Shown: piece by piece, positions 4,438 through 6,897 of the stretch
Layout: each line of letters begins with the position of its first letter
How positions within the stretch are numbered: position 1 is the first letter of the stretch
Virus record (IMG/VR): IMGVR_UViG_3300030060_003615
Span: 38,798-63,031 of that record
Direction: 5' to 3' (one strand)
DNA: 24,234 nucleotides
DNA from: a virus
Translations under genes and position numbers: made by a program
The notes under the pieces: model-generated
Told to the model about the DNA's origin: nothing
Databases searched by the model: none
Seen by the model: the letters and a program-made list of their open reading frames with translations, nothing else

Positions 4438-5511
4438 TTATACATCATTAAAATTATTAAACTCCGGTCTAAGGCACGGTCCCTCTGTGTAGTACTTATT
4501 TATATCCTTGTTCTCATAACGGATATAATCAGCAGAACATAATGATTGTATGATTTGGACGTTTGATCTGGTAAATTTCTTGGTTGCTTTTAAAGCTTGT
4601 GTCAGCTTAAGCAAGTCAATATCTCCTATTTCTTTTCTTTCAAGATTAAAATATTTCAGGAGACTTCTAAAGTTTACATGATTAATAACAGGCTGATATG
4701 CCATCTTATTACCATATGCCTTTAAAAGCATAAGCAAATATACATAACTTTTTTCAAAATCACAATTAGCCATAAGCTCCATCATAAGAACTATATTTTC
4801 ATCATCATCACTTTCTCCAAAAGCTGTCATTTCATTATACTTTTTGTCATCTATTACAAGAGCATCTTTATTTAAATGTTTTAATAAATCTGTCTCATAA
4901 TATATTGGACATGTAATATTATTAAGCTTTGAATTCATTGGTATAAATACCATTGCCTTACAATCTTCTCCACTAAATGAAGAATAGCCCCATCTAGAAC
5001 CGCTTAACCATTGATCTAATGAAGTTTTATTACCTGTTGTTGCATCATTTGGTCCGTGGTAATAATTAGCTACTACAAAACTTGCATCAATATAACACGT
5101 TGTAAAACTATTCATGTGTGCTAGCATATGTAATTTATCCCATCTTCTATCCTGCTTTGTATAATTGGCTTTTATATAACCAAGAAAATCTGTTACCTTC
5201 ATTTCAATAGTCTTACAAACAGCCATGTTTTTATCTGTTTTAAAAGGGAAGTTCCCCTCTGCAGGAATAAAAACTGCGCTTGCTGTTTCTGGTTTTAATG
5301 TTGCTTTAAAATGTTCTTTAACTTTAAACCTTGGAACTGTACATCCAGGATAAAAATATAGAATATCTGAACCATCATCTTTTGCCTCCCATGCATCTTC
5401 TGATACATTTAATTCTTCCTCATAATCTTCAAGAAAGAATCCGTGCTTCAAACCAACTTTAAAATCAGTGAAGCTATCACCATTTTTACTAATAAAAATA
5501 TATTTTTCCAT
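4438..5511 (-). CDS. Unknown 357-residue protein downstream of a folded leader
   Basis: No family recognised. The N-terminal half is beta-rich and acidic (EDYEEELNVSEDAWE near 30), with a Gly/Ser/Asn/Trp-rich middle (about 152-180) and a helical C-terminal half that contains a hydrophobic helix (SYVYLLMLLKAYGNK, about 256-270), more likely buried than membrane-spanning. The ATG directly follows TAAATTTAATTTAAAT. Immediately upstream is a GC-rich non-coding element able to form a pseudoknot (5529-5612), so this gene and the nuclease after it could be controlled by it. The AAA+ ATPase and VWA genes precede it on the same strand, so it may be a partner or client of that pair; this is inference. 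Confidence 0.8.
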   Translation of the reverse strand: MEKYIFISKNGDSFTDFKVGLKHGFFLEDYEEELNVSEDAWEAKDDGSDILYFYPGCTVPRFKVKEHFKATLKPETASAVFIPAEGNFPFKTDKNMAVCKTIEMKVTDFLGYIKANYTKQDRRWDKLHMLAHMNSFTTCYIDASFVVANYYHGPNDATTGNKTSLDQWLSGSRWGYSSFSGEDCKAMVFIPMNSKLNNITCPIYYETDLLKHLNKDALVIDDKKYNEMTAFGESDDDENIVLMMELMANCDFEKSYVYLLMLLKAYGNKMAYQPVINHVNFRSLLKYFNLERKEIGDIDLLKLTQALKATKKFTRSNVQIIQSLCSADYIRYENKDINKYYTEGPCLRPEFNNFNDV

Positions 5512-5528
5512 AAATTTAATTTAAATAA

Positions 5529-5612
5529 AAGACGCGGCAGGGGATAAGTCCTACGCCACCCTGCCTTAAGAAATAGTACCGTCATTTAAAGGACTGCCTT
5601 ATCTTACGTCTT
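5529..5612 (-). ncRNA. Candidate structured RNA with pseudoknot (leader or intercistronic element)
   Basis: This 105-base gap is much richer in GC than its surroundings and has three compatible helices. P1: AAGACG at 5529-5534 with CGTCTT at 5607-5612, enclosing the element. P2: GGCAGGG at 5536-5542 with CCCTGCC at 5559-5565, 7 bp. Pseudoknot: the P2 loop sequence GATAA-GTCC at 5543-5551 with GGAC (5591-5594) and TTATC (5599-5603), 9 bp with a 4-base bulge. The topology works on either strand; co-orientation with the operon favours the minus strand, where P1 is followed by U-rich sequence and then the ATG at 5511. It does not fit a tRNA (no T-loop) and I do not recognise a known riboswitch or ribozyme. 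Riboswitch-like leader, attenuator or processing site are all possible. Confidence 0.55.
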
Positions 5613-5616
5613 ATAA

Positions 5617-6897
5617 TTATTTTGTTGCTAACTCTTGTACTTTGGTATCAAATAAAAGCTTTTGAAACTTTTTCTTATTACCATTGAGAATTTTCTTTAC
5701 AATATGATATTTAAGATCATCTGTAAATACTTCAGCGTGTTTAACAAGATGTGATATTCTATTAATAATAGGATCATCTATCTTATTACTTTCAGCATAG
5801 TTTAAGGTATAGTTAATTAACCTTGTTGACATTATGCTTGCTATATCTGCTCTGTAATTAGTTGCAGCTGATCCTCCGTCACATATAGCAAGTAGTAATT
5901 TATTTGCTATAGCATCATCACCTTGACCTAATAAGATCTCTTTAGGTGTCATCAACTTATCTAGTCTGTTATTAATAAAACTACTAAATAATGTTGCAAC
6001 TTCTGGACCAACTGAACCTTCACCTACCATTTGTATAAGAGGTAGTTGATCTTCAAACTTTGGTATAGAACTAATACAGTTAAAGAATGTTGTCATAGAT
6101 CTTGGATTAACTCTTTGATTTACAACTTCAGGATTCATCAACACAAAATTGATACATCTACCGTCAATACCTTCTCCTTCTGCCCACTCAGCCCAACGCT
6201 CATGATTCCATTTTAATACTACACTAACAAATCTAGTTCTTTGAGCTACGTCAATTGCATTTACTAAATACTCTCCATCATCTGGATTAGCTGTCAATAC
6301 AATGTGCCAGTCATCAGGCAGCTTCCAAGAAATATATTCTTGTCTATCTACCAATTCCATAACTGCTTGTATAAATCTTATGTCAGCACGGTTCCAATCA
6401 TCTAGTATAAGAATACCACCACCTTGCTTATCAGCAATCCACTCTGGTGGGCAGTATGACATTCTTTTTTCTCCAGTAAAATTGTATCCTTGCTTTACAT
6501 ATTCATCAATTGCATTTTCATCTACCCATATACAGTCACCTTCAATCTCTGATTCAACTTGAACTTTCTTCATTACTTCCATACCATTAGGAAGTTTTAC
6601 TTTCTTAAGTTCAGTTTTAACTTCTACGCCTCCTCCTTCTTTACATAACTGAAATTGACGTAACGGAAAACCAATTAAGTCACCAAGCTCTTCTATTTGA
6701 GCAAGATTAAGTTTTACATAATTTAATTCATGCTCTTCTGCTAATTGCAATGCGATACTTGTTTTACCAAGACCAGATTCACCAATTACTTCTGTTGCTA
6801 CAGGTCTTTTACCTTGAGCTTGTATGTGTCTATTGTTACTTATAATATGCTGGAGAAAATCTTTCATTTCTCCTGAGTCTAAACTTACTTGATTCAT
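5617..6897 (-). CDS. MoxR-type AAA+ ATPase
   Basis: 426 residues. Walker A is G39-ESGLGK45-T46, Walker B is the ILILDD stretch ending D166-D167 followed by NRA, and sensor 1 is N204 in TANPDD; a likely arginine finger lies in QRTRF near 219-223. This is the MoxR/dynein-like arrangement of ATPases that work with VWA-domain partners to remodel or load proteins. About 40 residues between the N-terminal strands and Walker B form a family-variable insertion. The gene starts 2 bases after the VWA/metallopeptidase gene ends, so the two are almost certainly one functional unit. A folded non-coding element follows it. The client protein is unknown. Confidence 0.88.
   Translation of the reverse strand: MNQVSLDSGEMKDFLQHIISNNRHIQAQGKRPVATEVIGESGLGKTSIALQLAEEHELNYVKLNLAQIEELGDLIGFPLRQFQLCKEGGGVEVKTELKKVKLPNGMEVMKKVQVESEIEGDCIWVDENAIDEYVKQGYNFTGEKRMSYCPPEWIADKQGGGILILDDWNRADIRFIQAVMELVDRQEYISWKLPDDWHIVLTANPDDGEYLVNAIDVAQRTRFVSVVLKWNHERWAEWAEGEGIDGRCINFVLMNPEVVNQRVNPRSMTTFFNCISSIPKFEDQLPLIQMVGEGSVGPEVATLFSSFINNRLDKLMTPKEILLGQGDDAIANKLLLAICDGGSAATNYRADIASIMSTRLINYTLNYAESNKIDDPIINRISHLVKHAEVFTDDLKYHIVKKILNGNKKKFQKLLFDTKVQELATK

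Follow-up and report, generated by a model that had tools for sequence, protein, structure and literature searches.

A three-way-junction RNA family in two related types at gene boundaries of phage genomes

Introduction

The HMP-PP riboswitch (thiS motif) is an aptamer embedded in a terminator, noticed through its abnormally conserved loop; it occurs only with thiamin-precursor genes, and the aptamer lies within one long terminator stem (PMC6478431). The element described here, an 84-nt sequence from a virus genome, resembles it in its terminator-like hairpin, abnormally conserved loop, possible pseudoknot, competing closing stem (P1) and compact size, but differs in forming a three-way junction with other loops and in being carried by phages. 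No thiamin gene was recognised beside it by PHROG or Pfam.

Three other described systems invite comparison. The purine riboswitch (RF00167) is likewise a three-way junction capped by two loops, which in the present element may dock, whereas the junction strands that bind purine are not conserved in it. The loop words CCUNAAU and UGUWUGG presumably recall the purine riboswitch kissing loops, with their order swapped. With intrinsic terminators the element shares, in the group of sequences to which the analysed locus belongs, a GC hairpin and a U-rich tail, replacing the simple terminators of relatives; in contrast to a terminator it adds an enclosing P1, a second stem (P2) and conserved loops, and the U-run is missing from some lineages. 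Self-cleaving ribozymes such as twister are comparable in small size, conserved loops, variable stems and intergenic location in phages, whereas their topology differs. Rfam matches the element neither to the thiS motif nor to the purine riboswitch nor to any ribozyme.

Genomic context and orientation of the element

The analysed window (24,234 nt) spans positions 38798-63031 in a virus record of 63 kb. Its gap at 5512-5616, non-coding when both strands were checked, separates a gene for a MoxR-like ATPase (5617-6897, minus strand, 426 aa; PHROG 1297 ATPase, E 1.8e-32), located upstream of the element, from a downstream orphan gene (4438-5511, minus strand, 357 aa), after which the next gene encodes a PD-(D/E)XK nuclease. 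The orphan protein has no PHROG or Pfam match, and neither a search of GenBank phages nor one with its own peptide patterns found anything. Its orthologues occupy the same place in relatives, where the gene diverges fast (22-38% identity, versus ~75% for the neighbouring MoxR).

All genes around the gap are on the minus strand, and the sense of the element coincides with that of its flanking genes in 11 of 11 lineages. The RNA is therefore the minus-strand transcript, that is, the reverse complement of the plus strand on which an earlier, sequence-only reading had drawn its fold. P1 of this transcript begins 4 nt past the MoxR stop codon, and the ATG of the orphan gene follows 17 nt after P1.

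Fold of the window element

The window element (5529-5612, minus strand) is an 84-nt three-way-junction RNA formed by the closing stem P1, the short P2, a GC-rich hairpin P3 and a U-rich tail; this form is referred to as type II, and its homologues, covariation and top rank in its own genome are described below. On the minus strand, P1 pairs AAGACG (5607-5612) with CGUCUU (5529-5534), P2 pairs AGAUA (5600-5604) with UAUUU (5571-5575), and P3 pairs GGCAGGG (5559-5565) with CCCUGCC (5536-5542). Both strands of P2 were placed by the model R2 described below; the 5' strand is invariant in the three type-II sequences, and the 3' strand is paired in the type-II count. Loop L2 (AGGCAGUCCUUUAAAUGACGGUAC, 5576-5599, minus strand) is invariant in type II, and its first bases, AGGC, are common to the type-I loop AGGCCUNAAUC. 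Loop L3 (UGGCGUAGGACUUAUC, 5543-5558, minus strand) differs by one base across the three homologues and contains UGGCGU, found at a different loop position in type-I L3 (UGUWUGGCGU). The U-rich tail CUUUUAUUU (5523-5531, minus strand) follows P3/P1 as in an intrinsic terminator, and a terminator-like site is predicted at 5554-5537 with the tail CGCGTCTTTT, a GC-rich hairpin plus U-run of the kind that defines intrinsic terminators.

The sequence-only reading had placed a closing stem at 5529-5534/5607-5612 (AAGACG/CGTCTT) and a hairpin at 5536-5542/5559-5565 (GGCAGGG/CCCTGCC). Both are present at these positions, and both covary in homologues, as P1 and P3. Its description of a GC-rich, non-coding structured element, at a place suited to a riboswitch, an attenuator or a processing element, was likewise borne out, whereas the third helix, P2 (5600-5604/5571-5575), escaped it; with this helix the fold becomes a three-way junction.

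The minimum-free-energy fold of the minus strand is also a three-way junction, with P2 slightly shifted. Its stability is unremarkable (z -0.73 for the minus and -2.03 for the plus strand), and the case that the element did not arise by chance rests on comparison. When P1 and P2 were shuffled around a fixed P3, 34 of 2000 shuffles were as good, so that a single sequence argues only weakly for these two stems.

Type II homologues

A pattern built from the window loops, with the stems left free, gave three matches. One of them (L219) has 58% GC and stems that do not match, and it was set aside as a chance match. In the other two, L220 and L221, the window element has homologues in which the P2/L2 stretch and the P3 loop are nearly letter-identical, the only loop change being the one base in L3, which belongs to L221. 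Their stems have changed: P1 is AAGAUG/CAUCUU in place of AAGACG/CGUCUU in L220 and L221 (C-G to U-A), and P3 of L221 is UGUAGAG/CUCUACA in place of GGCAGGG/CCCUGCC, with three two-sided changes. Taken as three-way junctions, the three sequences are 100% paired with 4 two-sided changes, a result reached by 5 of 500 shuffles; with so few sequences this result is modest by itself, but its direction is clear. A scan of 47 records with R3, a model built from type II, found only the three known type-II sites: that of the window after the MoxR gene, that of L220 after an SSB-like gene, and that of L221 across the stop codon of a 98-aa ORF. On the 3' side of the type-II element of L221, a stretch of ~440 nt (5514-5957) has no sense-strand ORF of at least 40 aa with an ATG start; further RNAs or promoters may be located there.

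The condition set for refuting the sequence-only reading, a lack of covariation in homologous gaps, was put to the test: the same gap in close relatives mostly contains a plain hairpin or a related element, and true homologues of the window element sit at other places in other phages and show P1 and P3 covarying.

Pseudoknot and loop-loop contact

The sequence-only reading had also listed recurring words and set the hairpin loop (5543-5551) opposite 5591-5594 and 5599-5603. All of these are found in the sequence, but the 9-bp pseudoknot finds no support in the form drawn. In this pairing of GAUAA..GUCC with GGACUUAUC, the pair A5600-U5546 is replaced in L221 by A-C, with no compensating change, and the other eight pairs are invariant in type II and for that reason uninformative. 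The pseudoknot competes with P2, and the P3 loop is no more complementary to the upstream strand than in shuffles, 20-23% of which reach the same level. As a whole, the earlier observation is partly confirmed, and its interpretation partly supported.

A shorter contact is possible between AGUCCU in L2 (5590-5595, minus strand) and the complementary AGGACU in L3 (5547-5552, minus strand), for which each of the three type-II sequences offers 6 Watson-Crick pairs. This docking of the two loops is unproven, because its bases never vary in type II. The counterpart in type I would be a contact of 3-4 bp, GCC(A)/(U)GGC, whose bases hardly vary.

Type I family

Two relatives, L020 and L036, have a longer gap after MoxR that contains a constant upstream word and a stem-variable hairpin with the fixed loop UGUAUGGCGU; the upstream word recurs after the SSB-like gene of other phages. 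A relaxed loop pattern led to L122, L133 and L137/L138, all with entirely different stems, and R2 added L225, in the L220 phage (63.2 bits), and L218, a second, more divergent copy in the L103 phage (34.5 bits), both located after an SF2 helicase gene. Stem length splits the true type-I members (12-13 pairs) from chance matches (at most 9). No convincing member emerged when genome contigs were scanned with the type-I loops (combined stem scores of 2-5, and of 9 in L206 (Massilia), versus 12-13 in true members), and an R2 search of 39 further MoxR-relative records found nothing. GenBank phages, searched at the nucleotide level with type I and with the window as queries, yielded chance matches only.

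In the eight type-I lineages 133 of 133 pair cells are paired, and two-sided changes occur in 16 of 17 pairs, a count biased upward by the fitting of the alignment to the structure of the model; the slid controls and the conservation of the loops are independent of this bias. The covariation score is 1.011, compared with 0.291 ± 0.049 for shuffles and at most 0.218 for slid controls. All five pairs of P2 covary in type I, although they are invariant in type II (n=3). G-U pairs occur in type-I stems, and P3 is AT-rich in L122 and L138. Across the whole family the element measures 62-84 nt, with freely variable stems and near-invariant loops.

A sequence resembling the type-P1 twister ribozyme (L215 288-347, plus strand; L214 2723-2782, minus strand; 56.7 bits, below the Rfam cut-off of 67.2) was observed in an intergenic region of the L137/L138 phage.

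Relation between the two types

The first type-I model, R1 (three sequences), scored the window at 11.8 bits in a misaligned form, and the resulting verdict of non-membership was overturned by R2 (six lineages). R2, which contains type I only, ranks the window gap first in the 63-kb genome (20.7 bits, E 0.0044; the next match scores 12.5) when run unfiltered, the filtered search missing the element; it scores L220 and L221 at 20.9 and 14.4 bits. In the opposite direction, R3 (type II only) gives its three best scores in 24.5 kb around type-I sites to type-I elements (18.0, 14.5 and 13.9), a result that is supporting rather than conclusive, since the scores are low.

The slot after the SSB-like gene is occupied by type I in the L095 group and by type II in L220, with similar DNA preceding it, and the L220 phage carries its type-I element after the SF2 helicase gene. 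The two types have the same junction spacing and the same AGGC start of L2. The window has the P1-P2-P3 junction of type I with compatible strand spacing, as aligned by R2, but in place of the type-I loops (AGGCCUNAAUC and UGUWUGGCGU) it has AGGC and UGGCGU within longer, different loops, and is therefore filed separately as the related type II. Judged from these comparisons, the element belongs to a family of three-way-junction RNAs with at least 11 lineages and two related types, located at gene boundaries. That the window element is a conserved folded RNA we consider nearly certain.

The family is apparently undescribed. Among the 4227 models of Rfam (release 15), none matched at the gathering threshold and none up to E 10 for positions 5450-5680, and the elements of relatives of either type likewise have no match, which agrees with the sequence-only reading that this is no known class. 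A literature search, with the supplementary tables of large surveys outside its scope, found no description of the element.

Terminators at the same gap and at neighbouring slots

Relatives of the MoxR gene were collected, and the gap after it was read in each. In nearly all relatives with 66-79% identity this gap contains a GC-rich hairpin; close relatives that lack the element have an ordinary one, mostly resembling a terminator, and several have textbook intrinsic terminators there (L004/L015, L005, L021 and L023), that of L004/L015 being AAAAAGCTCTGG..CCAGAGCTTTTT; more distant relatives (54-63%) mostly have gaps of 1-12 nt. Two other gaps of the window have terminators of the ordinary kind (11448-11420 and 2298-2262). 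Together with the hairpins of the relatives, these suggest that in this group transcription is commonly stopped in some form at the MoxR gap.

Behind P1, the window, L020, L036, L095, L220 and L225 have a U-rich tail, with the next ATG 15-23 nt on, whereas the U-run is absent from L122, L133, L138 and L218. The window, L020, L036 and L225 have the element with its U-run 4-11 nt after a stop codon and 15-20 nt before the next ATG. The start of P1 lies between 2 nt inside and 11 nt past the upstream stop in 7 of 11 lineages (window, L221, L020, L036, L133, L225 and L218).

L095 and L220 carry a terminator-like hairpin just before the element, in tandem with it, with stems CCUGC/GCGGG versus CCCGC/GUGGG. 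After the SSB-like gene of L009 (1072-1167) and L010 (1042-1137) there is a second, different enclosed element followed by a terminator, its closing stem (ACACUA/UAGUGU versus AUAUCA/UGAUAU) surrounding a constant UUAAUUGU(U)GGGGCUCAUUAGUGGGCUUCCU; this is possibly another structured RNA. A weak Rfam match to sraA in L100 (7987-8045; 31.7 bits against a cut-off of 56), with a weak R1 score as well, is probably a terminator.

Discussion

The reading that we prefer, while holding it to be somewhat short of probable, is that the element is a regulated intrinsic terminator, an attenuator whose terminator itself contains the sensor. The two loops would dock (through GCC/GGC in type I and possibly AGUCCU/AGGACU in type II) into a compact recognition domain. 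In the window group, the stacked P3/P1 with the U-run would act as an intrinsic terminator ending the upstream transcript. A ligand, a protein or the ribosome that completes the upstream gene, 4-11 nt away, would control the formation of P1/P2, and this formation would set the choice between a stop and read-through into the next gene. The U-tail, the nearby ATG and the closeness of P1 to the upstream stop codon fit a terminator that is tunable by a factor or by the ribosome of the upstream gene. Against an attenuator counts the variety of genes found beside the element, since a metabolite riboswitch would usually keep constant neighbours. Termination is not a function common to the whole class, since four lineages (L122, L133, L138 and L218) have no U-run and two of these (L122 and L138) have an AT-rich P3. 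In the SSB slot the element is not needed to end the transcript, given the separate hairpin that precedes it in L095 and L220. The same two observations, the four lineages lacking the U-run and the separate hairpin, keep a protein-bound or processing element and a ribozyme among the candidates.

The first of these, an intercistronic element bound by a protein or ribosome that would stabilise or separate the messages on both sides, as a decay barrier or processing site with no switching, is in our judgement unlikely but deserves serious consideration. It would account for the position of P1 near the upstream stop in 7 of 11 lineages, whichever gene is upstream, and for the retention of the fold and both loops where the U-run is missing. 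Against it speak the persistence of the U-run in the window group and the plain terminators that relatives of this group have at the site. A self-cleaving ribozyme cutting the polycistronic message between genes is improbable: the size of 62-84 nt, the variable stems, the near-invariant loops and the intergenic position fit, and the twister-P1-like sequence ~1.2 kb upstream of the element in the L138 phage indicates that ribozymes occur in such phage intergenic regions, but no Rfam ribozyme model matches, no cleavage site is predictable, and the junctions, where the core of several ribozymes sits, vary freely.

A plain intrinsic terminator whose remainder is chance or hitch-hiking sequence would explain the terminator-like P3 with its U-run and the simple terminators found here in relatives. 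This reading is close to refuted, and we give it very little credence, considering that the ~60-nt loop/P2 region is nearly unchanged in L220 and L221 despite other contexts and changed stems, and that P1 and P2 covary massively in type I. Least probable of all is a folded single-stranded DNA site or mobile element instead of an RNA, which would suit the movement of the element between gene slots but is opposed by its orientation, which always follows that of the adjacent genes in 11 lineages, by the G-U pairs in its stems and by flanks in which neither repeats nor a recombinase were seen.

Covariation in 16 of 17 pairs over eight lineages, combined with near-invariant loops, is the hallmark of an RNA with a specific binding or action. 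Beyond the regulated terminator preferred for the window, the family might represent a new phage-borne class of riboswitch or self-cleaving ribozyme at gene boundaries, read through a pair of docked loops and comprising at least two sub-types, which interchange with each other and with ordinary terminators at the same slots, an idea that we put forward tentatively and with a little less confidence than the terminator reading itself. Rfam does not contain the element, which lies in phage genomes that otherwise have few gaps and replaces ordinary terminators at operon boundaries. It thus provides a testable case of the timing of phage gene clusters, or of a new riboswitch or ribozyme class.
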